Shown here: piece by piece, positions 13,866 through 30,738 of the stretch
Layout of the letters: each line of letters starts with the position of its first letter
How positions within the stretch are numbered: position 1 is the stretch's first letter
NCBI RefSeq assembly: GCF_034424525.1
Contig: NZ_CP139979.1
Location: 372,001 to 436,000, forward strand
DNA: 64,000 bases
Direction of reading: 5' to 3'
Origin: Sphingobium yanoikuyae
GTDB taxonomy: Bacteria; Pseudomonadota; Alphaproteobacteria; Sphingomonadales; Sphingomonadaceae
Notes under the pieces: generated by a model
Database searches by the model: none
The model's input: only the letters and a program-made list of their open reading frames with translations
Told to the model about the DNA's origin: nothing
Made by a program: the position numbers and the translations under genes

Positions 13866-14291
13866 GCTTTCCTCAATCGCTATCGACTATACGATAGTAA
13901 TCGTCGGATTTCCCGGCGAGACCCTCGTTGAGCTTTTGCACTGGTTTGCAACAGGACCGCGGGTTCGGATTTGCGGCGGTCAGGCATCGCACCTTGGCGG
14001 TGGACGCAGCTGGCACATGCACCCTGCATGGGATATTATCGGCACCGACGCAGGAACGTCGCAGGCGGGCTGAACATTTCTAAAATGGACCGGGATCCAC
14101 GGAAGGGATGGAGCGGCATGATTATCACCCTCTCTGACCCTTTAGCGGGAATCCGAGAGCGCAAGGCTGCCTTGGGTATCATCGATACCCCAGAGCGTAC
14201 CGATGCCATGCGCAATAGCGGATCGCGCCGAACAGCGCGCAAGGTTAGCGTCCGCGCTCGTGGTGTAATTTCCGGTGTAGATTGAGGTTGT

Positions 14292-14323
14292 CGCATGGGG
14301 TGGGGCATGCCCCACCCCATGCG
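14292..14323. repeat. Perfect 32-bp palindrome in the IS256 leader
   Basis: CGCATGGGGTGGGGCA is followed immediately by its exact reverse complement, giving a 16-bp stem with no spacer. It lies between the left inverted repeat and the transposase start at 14404. In RNA it would form a strong hairpin that could stop transcription coming from outside or fold the leader, an arrangement known to protect ISs from read-through expression. Confidence 0.8.
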
Positions 14324-15499
14324 ATTTCGATCTCGGTGGCCACCGGGCTCATCGGTAAGGTGGAGTTACCACACTTCACACGCCCACCGAGGAGTTGATC
14401 CCGATGACCGACGACAGACTACCGCTTGCTGAACTGATGGCGAAGACCGGAGATGGAGATTTCCTGCGCACGATCGCCGAGAGCGTGCTGCAGATCATTA
14501 TGGAGGCCGATGTCGACGGTCTCGTCGGCGCTGGCCGGCACGAACGCTCCGGCGAGCGCACGACCTGGCGCAATGGCTACCGTGACCGCAGCCTCGATAC
14601 CCGGCTCGGCACGCTCAACCTGAAGATCCCCAAGTTGAGGACCGGCGCCTACTTTCCCGGCTTTCTGGAGCCCAGGAAGACCGTCGAGAAGGCGTTGGTC
14701 GCGGTCATCCAGGAGGCATGGATCGCTGGCGTCAGCACCCGGCGCGTCGATGAGCTGGTGCAGGCAATGGGCATGACCGGCATCTCCAAGTCCTCCGTGT
14801 CGAAGCTGTGCAAGGACATCGATGAGCGCGTCCATGCCTTTCTCAAGCGACCGCTTGCCGGCGACTGGCCCTACCTCTGGCTCGATGCCACCTATCTCAA
14901 GGTGCGCGAGGGGGGGCGGATCGTCAGTGTCGCCGCGATAATCGCCGTGGCCGTCAACACCGAGGGCAGGCGCGAGATCGTCGGCCTGCACATCGGCCCT
15001 TCCGAAGCCGAACCGTTCTGGTCGACCTTCCTCAAGGACCTTACCCGCCGCGGCCTGACCGGCGTGAAGCTGGTCATCTCCGATGCCCACGAGGGCCTCA
15101 AGGCCGCGATCACCCGTGTGCTCAGCGCCACCTGGCAGCGCTGCCGCGTCCACTTCATGAGAAACGCGCTGGCCTACGTGCCCAAGGGCCAGAACACGGT
15201 AGTCGCTGCTGCCATCCGCCAGGTCTTCCTTCAGCCCGACCATGCCGCCGCAACACAAGTCTGGCGTCAGGTCGCTGATCAGTTGCGCGCCCGCTGGCCA
15301 AAGCTGGGCGCGTGCATGGACGATGCCGAGCATGACGTCCTCGCATACATGACCTTCCCCGAGCAGCACCAGGTCAAACTCCACAGCACGGATGAGATGG
15401 ACAAGACCCACGCTGCAAAAATGTGTTATGCAGGGGGTGCGCGGGCGACTCCGTGGCAAAGAGCGGGACCCCGGCTGCAAGTCTCGTCAGGCCTCCTTG

Positions 15500-16726
15500 T
15501 CACAGCCCTGCCGGTTTGGAGCGTCCGCGCACCTTAGGCCTTGTCTCCCACTGGGCAACGAATTGCTCATAGGCCTGCTCGGCATGGCGGGCGATGTCCA
15601 TTTCCTGATCGCGCAAGGCCTTGACGTTGTAGGCATGGGCAGCCCCGGGCTTGTTTCCCTTCTTCTGCGGTTTTCCGGCCTTGAGTTCCATTGTCCGCCG
15701 CTTGTTGGCGACCAGCGCAGGGCGCGCCCAGCGATAGTCAGTCTGCTTGGTCAGCAGATGCCAGCACAGAACCGTCAGCTTGCGAGCCAAGGCGACAGCC
15801 GCCACCTGATGGCCCCGCTTTGCCCGGATGCGGACAAAGAAGGCATGGAGCGGCCCAGGCGTCTTGGCGGCAGCCCATGCCGCCTCGACCAGCATCGACC
15901 TGGCGTGGCTGCGGCCAACCTTGCTGATCCGCCCATGGTGGGCCGCTCCGAGGCCCGACTGGCGTATACGCGGGTTGAGGCCGAAGTAGCTCACCAGCTT
16001 CTGGGGGCTCGAGAAGCGATTGATGTCGCCAATTGCCGCCACGATCCCTGCCGCCACGGTCAGGTTGACGCCCGTGATGGTCAGCAGTCTGGCAATCGCA
16101 TCATCGTCGAGCGCGTCGGCGGCGATCTCCTTGTCGAGAGCCGCCAGATCGTCGGCCAGCCGGTCAAGTTCGCGAATGTGCCGTTCGATAGCACCACGCT
16201 CGTCTTGTGGCAGGGGCTGGCGCAACAGCCAGGCCCGACCAACACCGCTGAACAGATCGGCATGCGGACAACGCGGGATCAGGTGAGCGTGCAGGATGGA
16301 ATGCACCTCGTTCTTGATCCGGGTACGGTGCCGGACAATTTGGAATCGTCGCGCTGCCAGTCTGCGCATCCGCTCCGTTGCTGCATCCGGTGTCCAGATT
16401 TCCGGTAGGTAACCGGCTGCATGCAAACTCGCCAGCGTGCCCGCATCGATCTTGTCGGTCTTCACATGTGCGTGGGCGATCGCCTTCACCTGAAGCGGAT
16501 TGGCGATCACCACCCTGGCCACAAACGGCGAGAGCACCCGCGAAACTGCCATGCAGTTGCCCGTTGCCTCGATCACGACCTCATCGGTCGAACGTAGCCC
16601 TTTGCCGAAACCCTCCAGCGCCGTCCGGGTCATATCAACCCGTCCGGCATTCCGGAGCCGCCCTTCCTCCCAAATCACCACCTCGCCAAAGGTCCGGTGG
16701 ATATCCATGCCAATGACGCGTCGCAT
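15500..16726 (-). CDS. IS110-family transposase (DEDD plus serine)
   Basis: This is a 408-aa RNA-guided recombinase of the IS110 family. The N-terminal RuvC-like part shows GMDIHRTFGEVVIWE, VIEATGN and KTDKIDAGTLA (D-E-D acids). The C-terminal Tnp part shows LLTITGVNLTVAAGIVAAIG and GRISKVGRSHARSMLVEAA with the catalytic Ser region. The length is normal and the frame intact. It sits alone in its element, with the candidate bridge RNA region just upstream. Confidence 0.95.
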   Translation of the reverse strand: MRRVIGMDIHRTFGEVVIWEEGRLRNAGRVDMTRTALEGFGKGLRSTDEVVIEATGNCMAVSRVLSPFVARVVIANPLQVKAIAHAHVKTDKIDAGTLASLHAAGYLPEIWTPDAATERMRRLAARRFQIVRHRTRIKNEVHSILHAHLIPRCPHADLFSGVGRAWLLRQPLPQDERGAIERHIRELDRLADDLAALDKEIAADALDDDAIARLLTITGVNLTVAAGIVAAIGDINRFSSPQKLVSYFGLNPRIRQSGLGAAHHGRISKVGRSHARSMLVEAAWAAAKTPGPLHAFFVRIRAKRGHQVAAVALARKLTVLCWHLLTKQTDYRWARPALVANKRRTMELKAGKPQKKGNKPGAAHAYNVKALRDQEMDIARHAEQAYEQFVAQWETRPKVRGRSKPAGL

Positions 16727-16971
16727 AAGCGCCTCCTGTCAGCCAAAGTGACGGGAGCGGCGGGCGACACGACAACTACGGATCCGCGCTCGCAGCGCAA
16801 CCGGGTGAGTCGCAGAGGCGGTCAGCTACTAACACGAGCTCGCAGCTCATCCTGTACATCGACCTGCCCGCACATTCGTGCTCCCGGTGCCTCTGTCCCG
16901 GATGGTCGCACCATACGCCACAACCCACGAGTCGCAGCAGAAACTTCGGCACCGACATCCTCATACCGGTT
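16727..16971 (-). ncRNA. Candidate bridge RNA region of the IS110 element
   Basis: This is the non-coding left end of the element upstream of the transposase, the place where IS110-group bridge RNAs are encoded. On the - strand it contains GGATGAG (complement of 16846-16852). This is complementary to CTCATCC at the opposite element end, next to the GT core (complement of 15390-15396), as a donor guide should be. A 7-base match can occur by chance, and I did not establish the target guide or the RNA ends. Confidence 0.45.
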
Positions 16972-17310
16972 ACCAATCCGCTGGAAAGGCTGAACAAGGA
17001 AGTGAAGCGCCGCGCCGATGTCGTCGGCATCTTCCCCAACGAGGACAGCATCATCCGCCTCGTCGGCGCCGTCCTCCTTGAGCAGAACGACGAATACCAG
17101 CTCCAGCACCGCTACATGCAAATCGAGGGCATGGCCGCACTTGCCACACCAACAATCGAGGAGGTTCAGCCGCTACAGATTACACCCAAGGCCGCCTGAC
17201 AATGCAGCCCGCTGGCCACACCCGAATTTACACCACGTTGACGGACGCGACCCGCGCAAGCGTGCTATGTTGGCCCGGATCGAGGAGCGCTCACGCGACG
17301 CGGGCGTCGT

Positions 17311-19170
17311 CTAGGCTGACCAAGCGCCTTGTTTCATGATCTTGGCGAAGCTCATGCGGCAGTAGCCCGCATCATGTATCGTCGGCAAACCGACCTTCCG
17401 CGCCCATTTTTGTGCTGACTGGGGAGGCAATCCCATCCTGTAGCCGATCTCGACCGATCCTATGATCTCTGCTGCAGCCTGAAGAACATCCGCTGCGAGA
17501 TATGCTTTACCGTGGCGACGTATGCGGCCGGTGGCGACGAATTTGAGAAACTGATTGGTGGCCAGGTTGAGTATCTCGCTGGCATCGGCGCCTGATAGCT
17601 CATCCTCGACATGGGCACCGGACAACGGGTTTTCCAACATCCGCAAAGTGTCGATGAGTTCGGCCGGGATTAGTATCTGGTGGGACAGGTCCGTCGCCTC
17701 GGAGGTCAGACCGAATCGACCATGCGGCCCCAGGAGCCAGGTGAAGATGCCGGCCCATGGCTTGGCCCGACCACCAATAGCCCTAGCCGCGATTTGTAGC
17801 GGAACGCCGTCAACTATTGCAGGATCGGCTTTGGCTTGGATTTTTGCCTCGAATGCCGCCCAAGCCTTGGTGGTGGTATTGCGGACGCCATATCGCGCCT
17901 CCCAATAAGGGTGGGTCAGCGGCGCGAGTAATCCAGATTGCATCAACTGGGCTATGGCATAGCGGGGCAACTGAGTTGACTGCGACACGGCGGTCAAAGG
18001 CAGACGGTCAGGCTTGGTACGTGCCAGTTCCTCGATTTCTTCGGGATCATGGAACGGTCGAACCACGCCATGAACTCGCACGTCGGTTAGCTTGAAGACG
18101 CCAGCGGCTCGCAGCTTTGCGATGATGGTATCCGTCTCACGCAGTACACGCACGGTTGATTTGGCGGAGATCAGTCCAATTATGTCATTCCCCTCGTCGG
18201 CCGACGGGAGGTCGGTCAGATCGGGGCTTTGACTGAGATCGGGTTGCTCTTGCTGCAGGCCATGTAGAAACATCGCGAACAAGGCTTTGACGCGGGGCGA
18301 GGAGCGGCCGATCCGGGCTTGCTTGACGGCGTGCCCCAATTTGTTCGACCAGTTGTCCCCTTCGCGTGGAGCTGGAAATAGGTCGGCTGGAACGATGGGC
18401 CATTGGCGCAGCAGTGTCACAGCATCATGAAGCGCGCTGATGACCGTCATGGTAAGGTTAGGATTGGTCAGCCATTTTCCGCGCAGTTGGTCGTTTAGCC
18501 AGGGGGAGAGCTTCAAAGCCAAGTCGGCAATGTCGTGCGGCTCCAAACTCGCAATCGGGTCAGGAAACTGTGATCGCGAAGCGGCACGTACATCGGAATC
18601 ATGGCTGAAGAGGCCAGCATAGATGCCCAGATTGTCGCGCATCTCGAGAGGGATGAACTCGGCCGGTCCCTCACGCAGGTCCGCGCTGCAGACATCTTGG
18701 TCGCAGGTGGCAATGCCGTTGGCATACCGCCACCGTTGGGTGACGCCGCATTCGTGACATTCGCTGCGCAGGATCTGAAAGGTTTCCGGGCAGAATGGGA
18801 CGGAGGCCAACTGCCAAATCGCACGATGATGAGCCGATAGGGCAAGGCTGGCCGGTGCATATCGGCGGATGGTGGTTCGCAGTTCGCTCTGCCACGCGCG
18901 TCCACCAAACCAATGTATGATCGCGCTGCCTTCTTCTGGACCGTGGGCATGGTGCAGTAATTGGAGGTACGGCACTACCAGAATGTCAGCCAGCGCCGGT
19001 AGCTGTTCGGCGTTGGTTGTGGCCGCCGTCGGCTTGTTGTCGTAAACCCAGCCAGCCTCGGACAAAAGCGTTCCCGTCCGTGGATATCCGTTCTCGGCAG
19101 TCACACGGGCGACAAGGCCCATGAGACTTTCGCCAGCGATCGGCGCGAGCGGGTATTTCACTTGGCTCAA
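17311..19170 (-). CDS. tniQ: TniQ/TnsD-family target-selection protein
   Basis: This is a 619-aa TniQ protein. The N-terminus has the family pattern PLAPIAGESLMGLVARVTAE. A zinc-binding region with several cysteines (SECHECGVTQRWR, TCDQDVCSAD) follows at about residues 130-165. The rest is a long helical C-terminal region, as in TnsD-size TniQ proteins, which bind a DNA target site and recruit the AAA+ regulator. The start overlaps the tniB stop by 4 bp. The length suggests sequence-specific (TnsD-like) targeting rather than a short CRISPR-type TniQ. The target is unknown. Confidence 0.92.
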   Translation of the reverse strand: MSQVKYPLAPIAGESLMGLVARVTAENGYPRTGTLLSEAGWVYDNKPTAATTNAEQLPALADILVVPYLQLLHHAHGPEEGSAIIHWFGGRAWQSELRTTIRRYAPASLALSAHHRAIWQLASVPFCPETFQILRSECHECGVTQRWRYANGIATCDQDVCSADLREGPAEFIPLEMRDNLGIYAGLFSHDSDVRAASRSQFPDPIASLEPHDIADLALKLSPWLNDQLRGKWLTNPNLTMTVISALHDAVTLLRQWPIVPADLFPAPREGDNWSNKLGHAVKQARIGRSSPRVKALFAMFLHGLQQEQPDLSQSPDLTDLPSADEGNDIIGLISAKSTVRVLRETDTIIAKLRAAGVFKLTDVRVHGVVRPFHDPEEIEELARTKPDRLPLTAVSQSTQLPRYAIAQLMQSGLLAPLTHPYWEARYGVRNTTTKAWAAFEAKIQAKADPAIVDGVPLQIAARAIGGRAKPWAGIFTWLLGPHGRFGLTSEATDLSHQILIPAELIDTLRMLENPLSGAHVEDELSGADASEILNLATNQFLKFVATGRIRRHGKAYLAADVLQAAAEIIGSVEIGYRMGLPPQSAQKWARKVGLPTIHDAGYCRMSFAKIMKQGAWSA

Positions 19171-20117
19171 GCTTCGATCTCCACGAACGGATTATAGTCG
19201 ATGAAGCTATGGGCAATGGCCCAGCTGTTCACTGCCATGGCGAGATCGTTGCGGGTAATCGCATGCCGACCTTCACGCACGACATTTATCGCCGCCGTTT
19301 CCACGATGCGGCAGGTGCGGCCGATGATTCCGCTGCTTGCGAGGCAAAGGGGGCGAGCAATGTCCTCTTCGACCAGGCCGCTGGCGACCTTCATGATCTG
19401 CTTGTCGACCATGGCGGTATCGAGGTCTTCGACGAAGTCCAGGAATAGGTCTCGATCGTCATCCGCCCACCAATCAAGGGGAGGAAGCGTGAGGGGAGGG
19501 AAGAGCCGGCCGTTCAACTCGTGGCTGGACTGGAACAGCTTGTCCGCGTCGTGGGTGCCGAAAAAGGCGATAGGAACAAGGCCAGAATCAAGGAACGTCT
19601 TCAGGCTATCCGTGACATGGGTTGCGGCCGATGACCGGCGCGACAGATGCTGGATTTCATCGATGACGAGCAACTGCACGTTATCCCGTTTGATGGCTTG
19701 CACGGCACGCTTGTGCAGGTTGGGTTCGGTGCCGCGGTCATAAAAGGGGTCGTCCAGGGCCTGCAGGATGGAAGAGAATAGCGACCTGGCGGTGCCAGTG
19801 CTCATGAGCTTGACGATCAGGACGGGCCGGCTGCCTTCGGGAAGTTCGCCCAGGCGTTCGATGCCGTCCCGGAAATGTTCGGCTGCTGTCGTTTTGCCCG
19901 AACCGCTTTCAGCCAGGAGGGTGATGCCATATTGCCGCTCGCCACGGGTGGCGATGCCAGAGCGCCGGACCTCATCCAGCCCAGCTATGATGGCCTCTTG
20001 GCGAGGATGAACAATCTTGATCTGGCGGAACGCGCTGCGGGCATCTGCCACGCGCTGAGAGCGGGCAGCGGCTTCATTCGGCCGTACAACCGGCGGGTTT
20101 GATGTAGTGGTAGTCAT
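19167..20117 (-). CDS. tniB: TniB/TnsC-family AAA+ transposition regulator
   Basis: This is a 316-aa ATPase that links target choice to the transposase. The Walker A motif is LLAESGSGKTTAAEHF, Walker B is QLLVIDEIQHLSRRS, and sensor/arginine regions follow (IAFFGTHDADKLF). TniB/TnsC proteins form filaments on DNA and activate TnsB. It lies 21 bp after tnsB and overlaps tniQ, so the three are one operon. An extended N-terminal tail (residues 1-30) could contact TnsB. Confidence 0.94.
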   Translation of the reverse strand: MTTTTSNPPVVRPNEAAARSQRVADARSAFRQIKIVHPRQEAIIAGLDEVRRSGIATRGERQYGITLLAESGSGKTTAAEHFRDGIERLGELPEGSRPVLIVKLMSTGTARSLFSSILQALDDPFYDRGTEPNLHKRAVQAIKRDNVQLLVIDEIQHLSRRSSAATHVTDSLKTFLDSGLVPIAFFGTHDADKLFQSSHELNGRLFPPLTLPPLDWWADDDRDLFLDFVEDLDTAMVDKQIMKVASGLVEEDIARPLCLASSGIIGRTCRIVETAAINVVREGRHAITRNDLAMAVNSWAIAHSFIDYNPFVEIEA

Positions 20118-20138: not shown

Positions 20139-22403
20139 TTAGAAATAGCTGCTGTCGTTCGAGCGCTTTTTGCGTTCGCGGCGTGGTTCGGGGTCGGTGG
20201 TCGACGCGTCCGGGGTGGGTGGCGGCGCAGGAGCACGCCGGTCGCGCTCTGGCATGTCCTCTGGCGTCGCCTCCCGGGCATTGGCAGCTTTCGCCTTCTG
20301 CCGGTTGCTCCGCCGTTTAGATGCGGTAGGGGCCGCTTTCTGTGGAGCGGGGCGACGAGACAGGGTGTCGGCATCGTGCATCTCGTGCTCGATCACGTCT
20401 GCATAGATGATCGGGATGTCGACTGGTTCAGGGCGCTCCCGCTGCAGGGTAGCGAGCTCACCGGTGATGCTGCGGATGCGCTTGTTTTCGAGCAGCTTGG
20501 CCAGAAGCTTGCGCTCACGCTCCTTGGCTTCGGGCGTCAGCTGGTCGATGGCGTCGAGAAGCTCGGCGCGGCAGGCGTCACGCCATTCCCGTGAGTTGAA
20601 GTCGGCGGCTTCCGCCTTGGCCTTCTCACGGATCTGCTCGTGCATCCACAGGCTGATCGGCTCGTCGGTATAGCCGGCCGTCTGGCAGTACAGCTCGACG
20701 TCCTGATTGGTTTTGCGGTTGATCACCCAGATCTTGCGCAGATCGTACGGGTCATAGCGGAACGACACCGTTGCAGTGGCATTCTTCAGGCGCTGACGCT
20801 TGCCTTCCAAGGGGACAAGATCAGCGAGCAGGTCAGGCACGGCTTTGTAATCGCCGAAGCGCAGGCCATTCCACTCGATGCCAGCGTGGGTCAGCCGGTG
20901 CGAATTGATCTTGGGGAGAAGGGCCTTCTCGAAGATGCGAGGATCACGCGGTAGAACGATCCCGTACTGGGCGGTGCCCTGTTTCCAACAGAGCAGAGGC
21001 TGTTTCTCGTTCAGGCCGCCATGCGGGGTCGTGTGATAGACCGCGATGGCGAACATGATGAGTGCCTCGAGTTCGTCGAGCGTCAGCACGGCATCCACGG
21101 CGGGGTCGTAATCATACTCGCGGGAGAGGGCGATCGGCAGATGGGCGCCGGCCACCTTCGATGACACGTAATTGTGGATGGTGAGGAAGATGCGCTCAAC
21201 AAGGGCTCGTTCGCGCGGCTTCTTCCGACCACTGATGCGGACCGTTGCACCGGTCGCCTTGCTCATGCTCTCCATATCGTGGCTGCGGAATTCCATGCCG
21301 CCATCCACGTGATATGTGCTGCACAGGCCGCAGACGTCCTGGGCTTCAGGGTGCTTGTTCTTGATGATCGGCGGCACGATCTTCGGTAGAACAGACCGGC
21401 GAAGCAACTCCGACACGGTGGCGTATGATGGGGCATTGAAAGACAGCATGTGCGAGAGCACGACCCTGCTGAACCCATCAACAAGTGCGGAGAAAGTCGG
21501 GCGGCCCAGAATGATGGCGCGTTCCACGTCGATGACGAGGAGAGCGGGTATGGGGGTGTGATCCATAAGCCCGAATTCCAGAGGACGCTCCGCCTCATGC
21601 CCTTTCCCTGCGCCACGCCACCGAGAGTAGGCTGCCTGCTTGCCGTGGCGGGCACCGACCGTTTGCTCACACTCAAGCATTTTGATGTCGCGATATGTGG
21701 TGCTCAGGCTCACCGGGAGGAGCGGCTCCGTAGGCATCTCGTATTCGAGCGAAGTGCCATCGTTGACGCGGCTAATCTCAGCGTTGGTCAGCACATTGAT
21801 ATCGGTGACGCTCTTCTTCGACGCATAGTAAGTCAAAGCCAGGCGCTGGCGGATTTCCATGCGGATGCCATCTTCATCATAGCAATGGCGCCCCTGGGCG
21901 CTCGTGGCCTCACGAGCATCGCGGTCGCCGACTTTACCGCGCTCCCGCATCCAGCGTTTCACGGTGTGCGGATTGGGTGCCTCGCCATATTTGGCGTGCA
22001 ACTCGGGGGTCCAGTGCTCGGCAAATCCTGCAGAGATTGCCTTCACGCCGGTCATTACGCCGTTCCGATCGAGCAGCCGTAATGTTGCCAGCCGAAGTGC
22101 GCTTTCGGGATCGAGTTCCTCACATTCGGCGGGCGTGAGATGTGATTCAGCGATCTTGTTCTTGGCCGGCGACTGCCCACGGTCTGCCATCTGGAAGAAT
22201 TGACCGTTCTGAAGCAGCGTCCGAAAGCGCTCCTGGTCCATTGGACGGACGACGCCGGCGTCATCGAGATATTCGACGGGCTTGCCTGTGGCAGCATGTT
22301 CGAAGTTCAGGCGTGTGCCATATCCATGTGATGTAAAAACACAGGGTTGACCTTCGATACTGTATAGCTGATTGCGTTTGAGCTTATAGGGGAAGTAATT
22401 CAC
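20139..22403 (-). CDS. tnsB: TnsB/TniA-family DDE transposase
   Basis: This is a 754-aa Mu-type transposase that cuts and joins transposon 3' ends. N-terminal HTH domains are followed by the RNase H-like core with Asp281 (LMDHTPIPAL), Asp367 (YHVDGGMEF) and Glu403 (RALVERIF). The last two are 35 residues apart, as in DD(35)E enzymes. The C-terminal 90 residues are basic and Pro/Ala-rich, like the TnsC-contacting tail of TnsB. The GTG at 22403 is chosen for GGGAGAG just upstream; the longer frame adds 13 residues without a ribosome site. It looks fully active. Confidence 0.94.
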   Translation of the reverse strand: MNYFPYKLKRNQLYSIEGQPCVFTSHGYGTRLNFEHAATGKPVEYLDDAGVVRPMDQERFRTLLQNGQFFQMADRGQSPAKNKIAESHLTPAECEELDPESALRLATLRLLDRNGVMTGVKAISAGFAEHWTPELHAKYGEAPNPHTVKRWMRERGKVGDRDAREATSAQGRHCYDEDGIRMEIRQRLALTYYASKKSVTDINVLTNAEISRVNDGTSLEYEMPTEPLLPVSLSTTYRDIKMLECEQTVGARHGKQAAYSRWRGAGKGHEAERPLEFGLMDHTPIPALLVIDVERAIILGRPTFSALVDGFSRVVLSHMLSFNAPSYATVSELLRRSVLPKIVPPIIKNKHPEAQDVCGLCSTYHVDGGMEFRSHDMESMSKATGATVRISGRKKPRERALVERIFLTIHNYVSSKVAGAHLPIALSREYDYDPAVDAVLTLDELEALIMFAIAVYHTTPHGGLNEKQPLLCWKQGTAQYGIVLPRDPRIFEKALLPKINSHRLTHAGIEWNGLRFGDYKAVPDLLADLVPLEGKRQRLKNATATVSFRYDPYDLRKIWVINRKTNQDVELYCQTAGYTDEPISLWMHEQIREKAKAEAADFNSREWRDACRAELLDAIDQLTPEAKERERKLLAKLLENKRIRSITGELATLQRERPEPVDIPIIYADVIEHEMHDADTLSRRPAPQKAAPTASKRRSNRQKAKAANAREATPEDMPERDRRAPAPPPTPDASTTDPEPRRERKKRSNDSSYF

Positions 22404-22577
22404 GTATCTCTCCCGAGATTTGGGTATTCTGAGGGCGCGCAAAATCCATCAGCAGTAGATATTTCTACGCTGCGAATGGCATTGCTTCTGTTGTGATGGG
22501 TGCCTGCGGGTTCGTCAGGCAGTTATGATTTCACTCTAGGTCATGGTTGAATCCTTCCTGGGGTATTTGATCTATGA

Positions 22578-23378
22578 TCAGATGAAGCTGACAGGCATCT
22601 CATCGATGAGAGGCTGCGTGAGATCGAGCGACACGATGCGCCTCACCAGCATGGCGAAAGTGATTGCCCGCCCTTGGACAAAATTTCCGGGCGCCATCAG
22701 CTCAGCGAATTCGCCCAACTGCATGTCATCCCCTTTGCTGCGGAGGCTTTCGACGAGCCGCTTCTGCGACGATGAGATGGCCGTGCGGCGCATCGAGCTG
22801 GCGAGGCGTACGTTGAAGCGGTGGCGGCTATTCTCGAAAATTTCGGAACCGAAGGTGATACGGAATTCGTGGCCTACCCGGCGGCAAATTTCTGCGACGC
22901 CGGCAAGCTTCAGCCGATATTCTGGATCTCGCAGGTCCGCATCGTCGCCTTTGACTTCGACGACCGCCAGGCGTCCATCGGCGTCCAGTATGTCGACGTC
23001 GCTTGTGTACCGCTCCTTTTTCCTCAGGATGAATTCGAAGCGGCGAGCTTCTGATTGGTAGTGGACAACATTGGGGTCCGTCTCGCATCGCTCGATCAGT
23101 GCAAGCTGATGCAGGCTCTCATAATGCTGTGTGCGGCCGACCTTCACGGAAGGGTACCAGCCGCTCGCATGGTGCGTTCCGCCAGAGACTGTTCGGAGCG
23201 ATCCATTGTCGTTGGCGACCACAATGCGAGCCATGGTGTTGACCAGGCTGTTGTGCTTCCTCAGCAAGGTTTCGGCGCGCAACCGGCCAGCGGAAGGCTC
23301 GTATGACGGGTTGCGCAGCATGAGGTTGATAGCGGCGCGAACGTCGATCTCAGCCAGTTCTTCATACGCGTCAGTCAT
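22578..23378 (-). CDS. tnsA: TnsA-like endonuclease
   Basis: This is a 266-aa heteromeric transposase subunit that cuts the 5' ends, allowing cut-and-paste transposition. Residues with the TnsA catalytic layout are visible: Glu87 (YESLHQLALIE), Asp127/129 (SDVDILD) and Glu141-x-Lys143 (VVEVKGD). A C-terminal helical domain follows. The start is placed at ATG 23378 (MTDAYEELAE); a TTG 84 bp upstream is possible. It precedes tnsB with about 170 bp between, a gap with no clear feature. Confidence 0.88.
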   Translation of the reverse strand: MTDAYEELAEIDVRAAINLMLRNPSYEPSAGRLRAETLLRKHNSLVNTMARIVVANDNGSLRTVSGGTHHASGWYPSVKVGRTQHYESLHQLALIERCETDPNVVHYQSEARRFEFILRKKERYTSDVDILDADGRLAVVEVKGDDADLRDPEYRLKLAGVAEICRRVGHEFRITFGSEIFENSRHRFNVRLASSMRRTAISSSQKRLVESLRSKGDDMQLGEFAELMAPGNFVQGRAITFAMLVRRIVSLDLTQPLIDEMPVSFI

Positions 23379-23561
23379 GCCAGAACGTCCAACCGCGACG
23401 GTTGCTGTTGGGCCATTTGGAGCGAGAACGACTCCACGTCTTAACGCGCTGCTGTCGTTCAAAATGTCGGATGATCTCGATCAGATACTCTGTATAAACG
23501 ATTGAAACGAGGTTGTTTCGATCTGCACTTCGCGGTTTAGTCGTCATCGCACTGTCTCCAT

Positions 23562-23650
23562 GTTGGTCACGATACTGTGCATTTAGGAACGCTAAAATGA
23601 CCGTGATGGCAACAGGAATGTGGTTTTAACTGCACAGTATCGTGACCAAC
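23562..23650. promoter_or_regulatory. Perfect 20-bp inverted repeat in the divergent tnsA/TnsB-like promoter region
   Basis: GTTGGTCACGATACTGTGCA at 23562-23581 is repeated in exact inverted form at 23631-23650, with 49 bp between. After one mismatch three more bases pair, so the arms approach 24 bp. It lies between the tnsA start (23378) and the start of the divergent TnsB-like gene (23692). Transposon-end sites bound by TnsB are usually direct repeats within one end, so a shared operator is the more likely reading. The rest of 23379-23561 shows only a short GAAAC/GTTTC dyad. Confidence 0.75.
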
Positions 23651-23691
23651 TCACTTGACGATGCGTGCCTTACTGTTCTAATAAGTCATGG

Positions 23692-24873
23692 ATGAACAGT
23701 AAGAAAAACGGCACGCGCGACGTTGGTTCGGATCGGTCGGCCCTCGAAACTGACGAGGAGTTGGTCAAACGGCATGCCGCTTCAGGCTTTTCTGGCGAAT
23801 CAGAGTACGCCCTGTTCCTGTCTCTGGATGATTCTAAGCGGGAGGCGGTGATTGCCAGACTGAGGACGATGGACCTCTATCTTCGCGACGATGACCCCAT
23901 GCCCGTGGGCGACGCGTGCAGCGCGCTCGATATGGAGCAGCGCAATTTTTACCGACTGCTGAAGAAGCTGAAGGATCTGGGCCCAACTCGAGGTCTGTCA
24001 CCGAGCTTCCGGGTGAAGGCTGTCGCGGCACCAGCACAGAAAGGCTTCGCACCCGTTGCCGAGCGTGCGCTGCGCTGGAAACTGCAGCATGAGCCCGCGG
24101 CTTCGCCCGCGTCGATCATACGCTGGATATTTGAATCCTGCGCGGATGCGGGCGAGGCGCCTCCGTCTGCATCCTCGATCCAGCGACGCATAAAGGTACT
24201 CCGCCGGGAAGGTGTCGCAGAGCCGGCGGCTGGGGCTGCTGGTCTTCAGATCCTGGTGGACCAGACCGCAGTCGATGTGATGGTTCAGATCAGCGGCCGG
24301 GTGGAATTGGCTACGGCTACGTTCATTGTCGATACCAGCTCTAGGATGATCCTTGGATTGGGGGTGGGCGATCCGCTGATTCCGGAAGACGGGCTCATGC
24401 GCGCTACCCGCAATATGGATGACGACCTCATGCGCCATCTCGTGCAGCACACGCAGGTGCATTTCGATCGCGTGGAGTCGATCGACTTTATCGCGCCTCC
24501 AGGCGGGGCGCGGCAGAGCAAGCAGTTGCAGAAGCGCTTTCGGGTCTTCAACCGCCGAGTGTCGTTTGACATTCATGCAGGCGGAAAGTGGCGTCACGGC
24601 ACACAGCTGGTCCGCTACCTGGGCGACACGCTGGGGCCGTATCAGTTCAAACCGCGGTTTACAGAGGAGGGGGCTCCTCTCAGCAACTCGATCAGCGAGG
24701 GGATTGAGCAGGAGATCATAGAGCGGGCGTTGCTCGTGGAGGCGATGCGCTGGAACGAAAGCCAGTGGCAGCAGGCGGAGCCGACGGTCGAGAAGTCTCA
24801 GCGCATGCGTGAAGAGCGGGCGAATGCGATCACCGCCCTTTTCCGTGATGTAGTCATGCGGCCCGAGTTCTAG
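23692..24873 (+). CDS. Catalytically degenerate TnsB-like protein
   Basis: This is a 393-aa protein with the outline of TnsB but roughly half its size. N-terminal HTH-like segments (MEQRNFYRLLKKLKDLGP; later SASSIQRRIKVLRREG) precede an RNase H-like core. Asp190 in LQILVDQTAVDVMV matches the first TnsB acid, and ATATFIVDTSSRMILGL matches its PTFSALVDGFSRVVLSH. The second acid is missing (IDFIAPPGG against YHVDGGMEF) and the third is replaced (TQLVRYLG against RALVERIF). It therefore should not catalyse strand transfer but could still bind DNA or TnsB sites. It is divergent from tnsA across the 20-bp inverted repeat. A regulator or transposition-control role is inference. GTG 23665 is an alternative start. 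Confidence 0.75.
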   Translation: MNSKKNGTRDVGSDRSALETDEELVKRHAASGFSGESEYALFLSLDDSKREAVIARLRTMDLYLRDDDPMPVGDACSALDMEQRNFYRLLKKLKDLGPTRGLSPSFRVKAVAAPAQKGFAPVAERALRWKLQHEPAASPASIIRWIFESCADAGEAPPSASSIQRRIKVLRREGVAEPAAGAAGLQILVDQTAVDVMVQISGRVELATATFIVDTSSRMILGLGVGDPLIPEDGLMRATRNMDDDLMRHLVQHTQVHFDRVESIDFIAPPGGARQSKQLQKRFRVFNRRVSFDIHAGGKWRHGTQLVRYLGDTLGPYQFKPRFTEEGAPLSNSISEGIEQEIIERALLVEAMRWNESQWQQAEPTVEKSQRMREERANAITALFRDVVMRPEF

Positions 24874-24903: not shown

Positions 24904-25656
24904 TTACGATATGTCGATTTCTAGCAGATACGCTGGAACGGTGCGTTTCAACGTTTCGGAGTGTGGGCCAACTTTGGAGGCGGTGACGTCGGCAATGTGG
25001 GTTTCGCGGGTTAAGGTCAGTTGTGCGCCGGTGGCGAAAACAACCTCCTTCTCGTTGCCGAGGTCTCCATCCCGACTGTAAGCGTAGGCTTTGGTTTGTG
25101 GCTGGATGACGTGGACGACCATCAGGTCCATCCGGCCAGCGTCATAAGCTTTGCTTTTCCACTCTGCATTCCTGCGTGCCACTTGCGGGCAGAAGGATGT
25201 GGAGAATGGGCGGGTCGTCGTGAAAGTTTGTACGCCGAGCGGCCATGAGCCACCGTGGAACAAGAATTGTCCATTTGGCATCGTCACCCCGATAGCTTTG
25301 ATCGCGCTATCCGCCGCAGATAAGTCGGCCTCTGAGAACTCAGCCTGATAAGCACTTAGGGCTTGAGGCACGTTTGACGGCATCAGGTTGCGGAGATCGC
25401 GATATTCAGAGCTTGCTGACAGCGCTTTGTCTATGTGACGCTCGAGCGCGTTATCTGCACCCTCACGAAGCATGCGCGCCGCGGCCTGGACATGGTTCGA
25501 GACTTCCTCAAGCAGCTTGTCTTTCGTGGTGAAGGATTCGGCTAACGAATAACCCTTTTGGCAAAGGGATAGCGCTTCTTCATCGGTGGACTGGCGGTAA
25601 CTCCATGCTTCGTATGGGGTGGAAAATACGTTCACAACCCGAGCGATCTGATTCAT
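24904..25656 (-). CDS. Putative ADP-ribosyltransferase-fold protein
   Basis: This is a 250-aa protein. The N-terminal 110 residues are helical with no known motif. The C-terminal half shows the order of motifs of ADP-ribosyltransferase toxins: FLFHGGSWPL (HG in place of the usual RG), TTTRPFSTSFCPQVA (STS motif) and GNEKEVVFATGAQLTLTRE (an E-x-E followed by a strand). No signal peptide is present, so it would act inside the cell. It converges with the TnsB-like gene (30 bp apart) and could be a defence or toxin cargo. No antitoxin gene is visible next to it. The assignment is by motif only. Confidence 0.5.
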   Translation of the reverse strand: MNQIARVVNVFSTPYEAWSYRQSTDEEALSLCQKGYSLAESFTTKDKLLEEVSNHVQAAARMLREGADNALERHIDKALSASSEYRDLRNLMPSNVPQALSAYQAEFSEADLSAADSAIKAIGVTMPNGQFLFHGGSWPLGVQTFTTTRPFSTSFCPQVARRNAEWKSKAYDAGRMDLMVVHVIQPQTKAYAYSRDGDLGNEKEVVFATGAQLTLTRETHIADVTASKVGPHSETLKRTVPAYLLEIDIS

Positions 25657-28611: not shown

Positions 28612-28913
28612 CTAATCCACGATCCCATCTGTGCCAAATGTTTCGACGACGGACACTCTCGTTTCAGCAGGAAGCTGACGGGGGTAGTTGGACAGAACCT
28701 GATCGTTCAACTGGAGCGAGTCCTTGTACGCCCGAATGATCTGAAGAAGTTGCGCTCCTTATACCCCAGCCGAGTGGCGGCAGCGGTAACAGCTGCTGCC
28801 ACTCGCCGACTGCCCTTCCTTGGGAGCTCTTCGACTTCCAGAGCGCGCCGGTAAGCTTCCGGCCACTGCTGAGGCGTGAAGGTCACCATGTAGTGGGCAA
28901 TGCGATCTTCCAT
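28612..28913 (-). pseudogene. Broken gene resembling the N-terminus of the TnsB-like protein
   Basis: It starts at 28913 with MEDRIAHYMVTFTPQQWPEA and reads to RLGYKERNFFR. A one-base frameshift near 28745 then shifts to IRAYKDSLQLNDQVLSNYP and VSVVETFGTD, ending in the IS3 right end. The piece RLGYKERNFFR-IIRAYKD resembles LDMEQRNFYRLLKKLKDLG in the degenerate TnsB-like gene at 23.7 kb, with a similar run-up. I read it as the HTH-containing start of a second, decayed copy whose rest was removed when IS3 arrived. The paralogy is judged by eye. A sequencing error could mimic the frameshift. Confidence 0.5.
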
Positions 28914-28964: not shown

Positions 28965-29249
28965 TCAGGGCGTCACTGAGGCCAGACCATTGAGGTATGT
29001 GCTGATGGACGACGCTGCGGCTGTATCAGCCCGATAGATCACCTGTTTTCCCGCACGGCGCGAAGAGACCAGGTGGGCACGCGATAGAATTCCCAGGTGG
29101 GAAGATAGCGTGTTTGCAGCGACATTGAGGTGGCGCGCGATTTCTCCCGCCGGCAGGCCTTCAGGCGCCCGGGCGAGGAGGCGGTAGATATCATGCCGAG
29201 TCGGTTGCCCCAGCGCAGCCAGGGCCTCGACCATTGCTGATGAGTCCAT
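28965..29249 (-). CDS. ArsR/SmtB-family transcriptional regulator
   Basis: This is a 94-aa winged-helix repressor: MVEALAALGQPTRHDIYRLL, then GEIARHLNVAANTLSSHLGI (recognition helix) and the wing RRAGKQVIYRAD. It has no cysteine at all, so the classic metal-binding ELCVC site is absent and another signal is likely. The start at 29249 fits the family length; a longer in-frame start would add 42 unrelated residues. It is divergent from the 250-aa gene at 29488 across 238 bp that should contain its operator; I see no clear dyad there. Confidence 0.85.
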   Translation of the reverse strand: MDSSAMVEALAALGQPTRHDIYRLLARAPEGLPAGEIARHLNVAANTLSSHLGILSRAHLVSSRRAGKQVIYRADTAAASSISTYLNGLASVTP

Positions 29250-29487
29250 GGGCCAGACTATCAGCGATCCATCCCAACCGGTCAAACGGTTAGTGACGGA
29301 CAGATCCGTCAGCCAAACCAACAATGTACCGGCCAATGTCCGTTTCGACGTCCGTTGAAACAGCAAATCGGACATCGTTCAATTCTATGATTCCAGAATC
29401 ATTGAAATGAATGTACAAGTCTGCAAGTGGAGCAAGCGACTCGCGCAGGCTTCTTTTGAAAAGGATGGTGACAGAAAGGGTTTCGCA

Positions 29488-30240
29488 ATGCTGACGCATG
29501 AGATGTACGAACAGAGAATAGCTGCCCGGACCCAGCGCTCAGCGCTGGATTACTTTACCACTTCAGCTCTGTTGGGACGCCCTGATCCGCTAGCCAGCGA
29601 TAGCCCCGACGATGTGTCATTCGATTTGACCTACAAGATGGTCGATCGCCTCGTGATAGCGGCCGTTGAAACCGGCGCTCGGTTTGAGCGTGACAGCTTG
29701 CCGTCCGATCCATTGGCCTGGCTGTATAGCCCGCAGCCTCCGTTTGACGGAGCGCGACCGCTGGAAGCGTGTTTGACCGCGCCGGGGTTGATGAGGTGTA
29801 TCATGTTCCACTCACTCGATCTGGAACTGGGCATGCCAAGTGATCTGGTCGATCAAATCCTCCGTCGTGACGCGGGCATGACCGGAGAGACGGTGGCCGG
29901 AGGGCTCTGGAATACCGGCAGGGACCGGGACAGTGTCGAACATGGTCGGACGCTTTACACCGCGACGATCGTCGATGTGCGGGTGGATCAGATCCACCAT
30001 GTCTACCATGCGATGATGGCCTGCGATCTCGCCGAGGCGAGAGGATTGCTCAGACTTCGTTATGGAAGACAGTTGGCGGACCAGGCTGAGGTCCGCAGAG
30101 GGTACGACGCGAGCAACCCGCTGGCGGTCTCTATGGTGTCGGACGCGATGGGGGCGATCTTGGCGATGGTGGCCAGCAACCCCCAAAGTGCGTTGGCCGA
30201 GGGACTGGACCTGCAACTCGAATCCAGGTTCGCGCCGTAG
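29488..30240 (+). CDS. Hypothetical protein, 250 aa
   Basis: The predicted protein is soluble (MLTHEMYEQRIAARTQRSAL to EGLDLQLESRFAP). The stretch PPFDGARPLEACLTAPGLMR recalls the short DUF2384/MbcA domain (GGxxPLDLL pattern), but this is weak. The C-terminal half is helical. ATG 29488 is preferred; an upstream in-frame ATG at 29407 exists. It is divergent from the ArsR gene and 15 bp before the next gene, so the two + strand genes probably form an operon under that regulator. Confidence 0.55.
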   Translation: MLTHEMYEQRIAARTQRSALDYFTTSALLGRPDPLASDSPDDVSFDLTYKMVDRLVIAAVETGARFERDSLPSDPLAWLYSPQPPFDGARPLEACLTAPGLMRCIMFHSLDLELGMPSDLVDQILRRDAGMTGETVAGGLWNTGRDRDSVEHGRTLYTATIVDVRVDQIHHVYHAMMACDLAEARGLLRLRYGRQLADQAEVRRGYDASNPLAVSMVSDAMGAILAMVASNPQSALAEGLDLQLESRFAP

Positions 30241-30598: not shown

Positions 30599-30661
30599 TG
30601 CCTCTCAGAGGATCACGAAAATGAAGCAAAGGAGCAGTCTTACTGACAACCGATATTTCGT

Positions 30662-30738
30662 TGGCGACCCCGGCAGGATTCGAACCTGCGACCATCCGCT
30701 TAGAAGGCGGATGCTCTATCCAACTGAGCTACGGGGCC
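30662..30738 (-). tRNA. tRNA-Arg (anticodon TCT)
   Basis: The tRNA has 77 bases including an encoded CCA. The acceptor stem is GGCCCCG/CGGGGTC, the D-arm AGCTCAGTTGGATAGAGC and the anticodon loop CTTCTAA, giving TCT. The T-loop is GGTTCGAATCC. The 3' end points toward the accessory region, the usual orientation for an island integrated at a tRNA. I found no second copy of the tRNA 3' end inside the window. Confidence 0.97.

Follow-up and report, generated by a model that had tools for sequence, protein, structure and literature searches.

A catalytically dead TniA/TnsB-type protein, divergent from a Tn7-like tns operon and exchanged between transposons together with a second dead homologue

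A Tn7-like transposon at a tRNA-Arg gene

The stretch of DNA analysed here, 64,000 nucleotides of the Sphingobium yanoikuyae genome (hereafter the window), carries a transposition operon and one end of the element to which it belongs:

17311..19170, minus strand: tniQ/tnsD target selector (Pfam TniQ, 1.3e-7)
19167..20117, minus strand: tnsC/tniB ATPase (Pfam TniB, 1.4e-20)
20139..22442, minus strand: tnsB, DDE transposase (D294, D380 and E416 invariant in 17 sequences)
22578..23462, minus strand: tnsA (position, invariant residues, sub-threshold TnsAB matches)
30631..30653, minus strand: probable right transposon end, TCGGTTGTCAGTAAGACTGCTCC inward (end pairing, ortholog comparison)
30662..30738, minus strand: tRNA-Arg(tct) at the insertion site (empty-site comparison)

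With tnsA, tnsB, tnsC and tniQ in order, an end pair and a tRNA-Arg site, the element is a Tn7-like transposon. The window TnsB profile matches Tn6677 TnsB with an E-value of 1.3e-65. In TnsA, D155 and E169-x-K171 are invariant in 10 relatives and presumably form the TnsA nuclease motif; matches to the TnsA part of TnsAB entries in the PDB are sub-threshold (E 0.12-0.29), and Pfam gave no hit for this protein.

A matching left-type end is located about 29.4 kb left of the window start, which makes the element about 60 kb long; no target duplication was established for this end pair. The left end contains more repeats with CTGCTCC, which, as expected, would fit TnsB sites. At the other extremity, orthologous insertions diverge from each other immediately beyond the right end. 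When genomes with an empty site are compared, chromosomal sequence continues, on the right, from the 3' end of tRNA-Arg(tct), near 30662, in four genomes out of four and, on the left, from about 32 kb left of the window in three of them (L140 has no match on the left). The element is itself interrupted, left of tniQ, by a composite of insertion-sequence-like ORFs (14244-17252), and both sides of this composite are joined in the orthologue L052, with an 8-bp overlap resembling a target duplication.

Gene X encodes a TnsB/TniA-type protein without a complete catalytic triad

Divergently from tnsA lies a gene that we call X (an alternative GTG start is found at 23665):

23692..24873, plus strand: X, catalytically dead TniA/TnsB-type protein, 393 aa encoded by 393 codons (ORF, fold, homology, purifying selection)
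23830..24207, plus strand: bipartite helix-turn-helix (HTH) region of X, about residues 47-172 (AlphaFold helices, profile match, VIA)
24244..24786, plus strand: RNase H-like core of X, about residues 185-365 (alignment, structure model)

A preliminary description, made from the sequence, had read X as a TnsB-family protein with remaining N-terminal HTH segments and without its catalytic acids, and these points held. X contains the RNase H-like integrase core of the TnsB/TniA/MuA type, and nothing places it outside that fold. AlphaFold predicts helices at residues 47-64, 72-79, 83-95, 121-133, 139-153 and 160-172; in a PDB sequence search, positions 50-167 of the A1 profile align with residues 46-166 of ShCAST TnsB (E 6e-4), and VIA, a structure comparison, pairs X with domains of TnsB, MuA and Pax. 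Within the structure model, prediction is best for the HTH region; a first model was poor (pLDDT 48.6), and VIA matches on it mostly spanned the HTH part alone. These models indicate that HTH domains of the end-binding type are kept in X at the level of the fold, and they suggest that X may bind DNA.

In the window X, the first catalytic Asp is kept (D190), the second acid position is occupied by P269 and the third by V307, and better alignment revealed no intact acids. Among 29 X sequences (the set without L108-L110), the first Asp is kept in 28 and the second position is Gly or Pro in 27; the best alignment shows an acid in column 307 in none of the 29, and column 308 holds E in four sequences and D in one. 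Without a complete D-D-E triad, X is, judging from these alignments, most probably not an active DDE transposase. X also lacks a counterpart of the C-terminal Mu-transpos_C, TnsC-contacting part of TnsB (393 aa versus 767). PF09299 has no match in X, and residues 517-576 of the window TnsB match it weakly, below the cut-off.

We could not find an existing name for the X family in Pfam, PHROGs, NCBIfam or the literature. Pfam gave a single sub-threshold HTH hit (HTH_20), PADLOC two sub-threshold Csa3 HTH hits and nothing else, and two scans of viral contigs recovered no X relatives. Protein-database searches restricted by exact words retrieved a 99% copy of X, as well as P0003 and P0004. Among open-licence PMC papers, our searches returned no title on a dead TnsB/TniA partner, and none is mentioned in the relevant passages of PMC10293859, Benler et al. 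2021 (PMC8649781), PMC9938897, PMC9527255 and PMC3687335, in agreement with the earlier statement that no Tn7-like family with such a partner is described.

X is maintained by selection at a constant position

Searching 396 genomes of the order with the A1 profile, we found 27 full-length X (E below 1e-40) in 26 genomes, all Sphingomonadaceae. At 1e-5, matches occur in 46 of the 396 genomes, those beyond the full-length ones being partial. Full-length X are likewise confined to Sphingomonadaceae in samples of the class (385 genomes) and of the phylum (349), where the other matches are partial or lie in frames of 243-843 codons, including transposases such as L148. One locus with tnsA, X and Y (the second homologue treated below) of sphingomonad type, L104, comes from a metagenome-assembled genome labelled Actinomycetota, probably through a binning error rather than cross-phylum transfer.

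All 27 full-length copies are divergent from tnsA, which is followed by tnsB, so that the divergent arrangement and the co-occurrence with tnsA-tnsB described for the window extend to related genomes. Measured between the longest ORFs, the tnsA-X gap varies between -204 and 1623 bp, and in some loci it contains small ORFs. In the L045/L047/L049 group, two small conserved ORFs of 114 and about 130 aa lie there on the tns strand (L045 6909-8490, L047 8091-9129, X oriented +) and possibly belong to the tns operon. Conversely, out of 21 TnsB places (E up to 1.6e-42), 16 have a full-length X beside them. In one, G322 (contig C7), there is no more than a weak X/Y-like ORF, encoded on the strand of tnsA; G347 and G207 have no X, and the last two places are at contig ends. 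Two further tnsABC-tniQ loci, L105 and L106, are also without X.

X evolves under purifying selection. Six Sphingobium sequences, in all of which X is full-length, give a pN/pS of 0.079 for this gene and of 0.070 for tnsA, as compared with 0.117 for tnsB, 0.045 for tnsC and 0.171 for tniQ among five. The near-identical orthologous loci of the window, L108-L110, are those of S. limneticum, S. naphthae and S. scionense. One could suppose that X is a decaying transposase or ordinary cargo, as its acids are lost and the Y gene of the window is truncated. This is hardly credible in view of the selection on an intact frame, of a divergent position that is identical in 27 of 27 loci and of the conserved motifs that diverged relatives have in common; the low pN/pS led us to reject a decaying pseudogene.

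A second dead homologue, Y

In 24 of the 27 loci, X is followed by a gene for a protein of 230-420 aa, which we call Y; with L039, found with an earlier profile, this makes 25. Y is convergent with X except in L045, L047 and L049. Both proteins are homologous (hhalign E 9e-30), and the first Asp is not conserved in Y. The window retains only a fragment:

28656..28913, minus strand: 5' remnant of Y, cut by insertion sequences (DNA match to the intact Y of L109; Y-profile match)

An intact Y of 358 aa is nevertheless present about 30 kb left of the window start (L142 9428-10504, minus strand), flanked by a left-type end and an eroded right-type one; apparently, a mini-element with Y alone lies directly against the 60-kb element. 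L045 and L047 each carry several Y genes, the matching ones being 87-90% alike and in a different order. Stand-alone ORFs of 222-229 aa, on the minus strand in locus coordinates (L045 2207-2896, L049 5054-5722), match only the N-terminal part of TnsB (profile positions 108-254) and, from this match, appear to be a third kind of TnsB-derived protein in such elements.

Directly after X in the window, where most relatives have Y, lies a 250-aa ORF (24904-25656, minus strand) for which Pfam reports nothing above threshold; by eye, we take its LFHGG...EKEVVF pattern to recall an ADP-ribosyltransferase fold. Between the Y remnant and the right end, an ArsR-type regulator (28965-29375, minus strand) and an ORF with a weak Xre/MbcA/ParS C-terminal match (29407-30240, plus strand) are both conserved in the orthologue L109.

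X and Y score closer to TniA-type transposases than to the TnsB beside them

Profile comparisons point to a relationship of X with transposases of the TnsB/TniA/MuA type. In hhalign, X-TnsB reaches an E-value of 2.2e-7 and Y-TnsB 5.4e-10, the controls (TnsA, TnsC, TniQ, reversed and shuffled TnsB) remaining at 0.01 or worse, and a complete transposase of the TniA type scores 76 bits with the X profile. When A1 and A6 were used to search PDB sequences, the entries retrieved were all TnsB-bearing; with the shallow mixed alignment A5, the top entry was a phage coat protein (E 6e-5, none of its stretches passing by itself), and TnsB reached 0.14-0.23 only.

The preliminary description took X for a half-size paralogue of the adjacent TnsB. 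Its dead TnsB-type protein and its association with tnsABC stand; its origin from that TnsB does not. We scored profiles of 29 X and 31 Y sequences (X29 and Y31) on 21 proteins of 414-783 aa that we labelled TniA-type ourselves, several of which are followed by an ATPase gene. The better of the two profiles gives 44-81 bits on 19 of the 21; as 14 of these proteins had been fetched by X or Y searches, the set is biased towards X, and six of the seven that came from TnsB searches alone reach 46-61 bits. Tn7-like TnsB proteins range from -9 to 18 bits with the X profile and from -9 to 38 with the Y profile, and the window TnsB scores -4.4 (X29) and 6.7 (Y31), which led us to reject a copy of the neighbouring TnsB. 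By these scores, X appears nearer to TniA-type transposases than to the TnsB encoded beside it. In a four-group tree, X and Y group with each other and away from the transposases; the tree gives no nearest relative for them because TnsB rows aligned poorly (9 of 15 were lost for this reason).

Paired repeats between tnsA and X

The region between tnsA and X contains a 24-nt inverted repeat:

23562..23585, plus strand: left arm, candidate operator site (first 20 nt perfect)
23627..23650, minus strand: right arm (same repeat as 23562..23585)

This pair is the strongest that we found, with a score of 21 against 11 for the best null, and it exceeds each of 60 Markov nulls; the five orthologues checked have it as well. 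The window intergenic region varies too little (0/40 in the arms, 5/189 elsewhere) for judging conservation of the arms. Across 28 loci (near-identical L108-L110 and L120, whose region is under 80 bp, being set aside), paired repeats of 13-28 nt exceed Markov nulls between tnsA and X in nine (binomial P 5e-6) and are not significant in the remaining 19. Controls give 2/26 downstream of tniQ, 1/24 upstream of Y and 2/26 inside tnsC (Fisher P 0.01-0.03); an initial scan with other settings had yielded few clear loci. Paired, element-specific repeats are thus enriched in the tnsA-X region. Their sequences differ from element to element, and the pairs are inverted in the window, L043, L044, L114 and L119 and direct in L113, L117, L121 and L124.

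A strongly conserved intergenic block, with two direct repeats 44 nt apart, is common to L115 and L117. This block is not unique, as 70-column windows as conserved occur beyond Y; taken over its full length, the intergenic region is less conserved (117/178) than X (798/1071). No sigma-70 promoter match was found in 23380-23760, which carries little weight because only 0.4 would be expected by chance.

We also considered that the arms might be copies of the transposon ends, and rejected it: shuffled sequences match or beat the observed scores, reaching them in 456 of 500 cases (right end) and 293 of 500 (left end) for the arm, and in 181 and 420 for its complement.

X and Y are exchanged between transposons

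Distances between X proteins correlate with those between Y proteins (Spearman 0.63, 0/300 permutations, 22 loci); for the same loci, X against TnsA, TnsB and TnsC gives -0.08 to 0.02, and TnsA, TnsB and TnsC among themselves give 0.64-0.82. TniQ correlates with TnsA/B/C (0.52-0.60) and not with X (-0.15). X and Y thus co-vary with each other, independently of TnsABC and TniQ. These 22 loci were drawn from 30 X loci, in which L109 stands in for the window: L104, L115, L116 and L118 were left out by choice, and the others had no scored TnsC or no adjacent intact Y. A first comparison, untrimmed and covering 29 loci, among them the window and the near-identical copy of L109, points the other way, with r = 0.27 for X-TnsB, a value that 0 of 2000 permutations reach; in a tree version (24 loci), X-TnsB is 0.08, with 75 of 500 permutations as high.

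Individual pairs of loci show that X and Y have been exchanged in both directions, with breakpoints near the 5' end of the operon. L045 and L047 are 90.8% identical over 7.8 kb of DNA comprising tniQ-tnsC-tnsB-tnsA and two small ORFs (proteins: TnsC 98%, TnsB 96%, TnsA 93%, TniQ 89%), and their X proteins are 32% identical; DNA identity stops about 10 bp short of where the outermost of the small ORFs on the tns strand probably begins. Similarly, L121 and L046 have TnsB at 70% and X at 29%, and DNA similarity ends at the tnsA start. L115 and L118 share 74% of TnsB and only 41% of X, similarity breaking off within the 5' part of tnsA. The reverse is seen in L115 and L117, with X at 81%, Y at 74% and TnsA, TnsB, TnsC and TniQ at about 23%: DNA similarity (75%) begins at the tnsA start of L117, at a point of L115 that lies 188 bp before its own tnsA start, and extends through X and Y, then for 0.95 kb more.

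This pattern bears on whether X and Y act inside the transpososome, as non-catalytic TnsB-like end-binding subunits, be they structural partners or a poison subunit limiting transposition. Other transposons are known to make truncated or inhibitory forms of their transposase. The entire HTH and RNase H-like module is kept, with D190 in 28 of 29 sequences, and precedents are offered by the two non-catalytic, structural protomers of the ShCAST TnsB strand-transfer complex (in the part of PMC9527255 concerned) and by Tn5/Tn10 autoregulation (in that of PMC3687335). Yet a subunit that has to fit its partners should track TnsB, and X co-varies neither with TnsB nor with TnsC or TnsA, which disfavours such a role. 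X is moreover closer to TniA-type proteins than to its own TnsB, it lacks the TnsB C-terminal part, and the window repeat beside it is unlike the element ends. We consider this role unlikely. The end-bridging function proposed in the preliminary description is weakened in the same way, because X does not co-vary with TnsB and the repeat on its side is no more end-like than shuffles.

A target-site selector would also be exchanged as a module, and a dead tyrosine recombinase, TnsF of Tn6022, was recruited by a Tn7-like element for such a task (according to the sections of PMC10293859 that treat it). X is on the 5' side of the operon, away from tniQ, and it is TnsABC, not X, that TniQ tracks. 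Beyond tniQ, tRNA-Thr(cgt), which we assume to be the target there, occurs in four of the 27 loci scanned, within about 0.3 kb in L046, L051 and L118 and at 1.8 kb in L119; the X of the first three belong to different supported clades. In addition, G394, G183 and G405 share their right-hand sequence, with X only 32% identical. Target selection by X is thus very improbable.

Only slightly less improbable is an exclusion system, in which X and Y would recognise ends or promoters of related transposons competing for the same site and would diversify for this reason. The extreme exchange of X and Y between near-identical elements, the several Y genes in different order in L045 and L047 and the adjacent Y-only mini-element and 60-kb element in the genome of the window would suit such a system. 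No target sequence was identified in rival elements, though; the Y arrays may be debris from repeated insertion, and the constant place beside the tns operon suits self-regulation at least equally.

A putative regulator of the tns operon

Starting from the fold, the acid loss, the purifying selection and the constant divergent position of X, its co-variation and exchange together with Y and the enrichment of paired repeats, all of which are computational observations, we propose that X binds DNA in a sequence-specific manner and regulates the tns operon, most probably as a repressor, from within an exchangeable cassette; we give this reading somewhat better than even chances. X would have been made from a TniA/TnsB-type transposase after loss of catalysis. 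Its HTH domains would bind the paired, element-specific sites between the tns operon and X, and X would thereby control the tnsA-tnsB-tnsC-tniQ operon and its own gene. X, the promoter region and Y would form a cassette inherited as a unit and swapped between otherwise different Tn7-like transposons, like the repressor-operator (immunity) regions of phages. We infer DNA binding, binding at the paired repeats and repression as the sign of control; what Y does, and an immunity-like purpose of the exchange, would follow from the same model.

A regulator of the tns promoter explains the constant position of X, its HTH domains and the paired sites, as well as why X moves with the promoter region yet not with TnsABC. 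Among the roles put forward in the preliminary description (transposition repressor, end-bridging factor, sensor of element copy number), a repressor of the transposition genes fits best. On the other side, an RNase H-like core with D190 kept in 28 of 29 sequences would seem to exceed the needs of a plain repressor and counts against the regulator, as do the 19 of 28 loci where repeat pairs are not significant and the lack of likeness between the window repeat and the end sites of the element. Y, the exchange of X and Y between transposons and the family-wide spread go beyond that description.

More speculatively, and with rather low confidence, X and Y may form a transposon immunity region, that is, a pair or array of dead TniA-type proteins with cognate operators, which diversify and are exchanged as a module to escape resident relatives. 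The element would in this way evade repression or exclusion by relatives at the same attachment site. If true, this would be phage-like heteroimmunity in a transposon, built from retired transposases; the regulator, if confirmed, would mean that transposases were recruited to regulate an unrelated transposon lineage.

How tns genes are silenced in large Tn7-like elements is poorly known outside CvkR-type regulators, and so is the competition of relatives for a single attachment site. A pair of dead transposases, present family-wide and exchanged apart from the transposition machinery, provides a concrete genetic handle. L045/L047 (near-identical operons, different X) and L115/L117 (different operons, near-identical X-Y) are natural swap experiments.

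Comparison with known systems

X shares with the TnsB/TniA/MuA transposases of Tn7, Tn6677, ShCAST, Tn5053 and phage Mu a bipartite HTH followed by an RNase H-like integrase core, and the first catalytic Asp. Unlike them, the window X is without the second and third acids, the C-terminal part and a Pfam or NCBIfam name.

Temperate phages possess immunity regions in which a regulator and its promoter region are exchanged as a unit between otherwise similar elements. X and Y differ from these in that their regulators are transposase-derived and act, if at all, on a transposition operon. Negative control by transposase derivatives is also known from Tn5, whose inhibitor Inh is a truncated transposase made from the gene of the active transposase itself. 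X resembles Inh-type inhibitors in its ancestry and likely function; unlike Inh, it represents an old lineage of its own, with Y as its partner and a promoter region that is exchanged.

CvkR and the other divergent regulators of type V-K CASTs are, like X, DNA-binding-type proteins divergent from a Tn7-like operon; CvkR is, as described in the corresponding part of PMC9938897, a small MerR-type protein with no transposase ancestry, unlike X. TnsF of Tn6022, finally, is like X a dead recombinase adopted by a Tn7-like transposon, and serves to select targets through TniQ, as presented in Faure et al. 2023 (PMC10293859). Unlike this dead tyrosine recombinase, X is a dead DDE transposase; it flanks the tns operon at its 5' side, and its variation does not follow that of TniQ.
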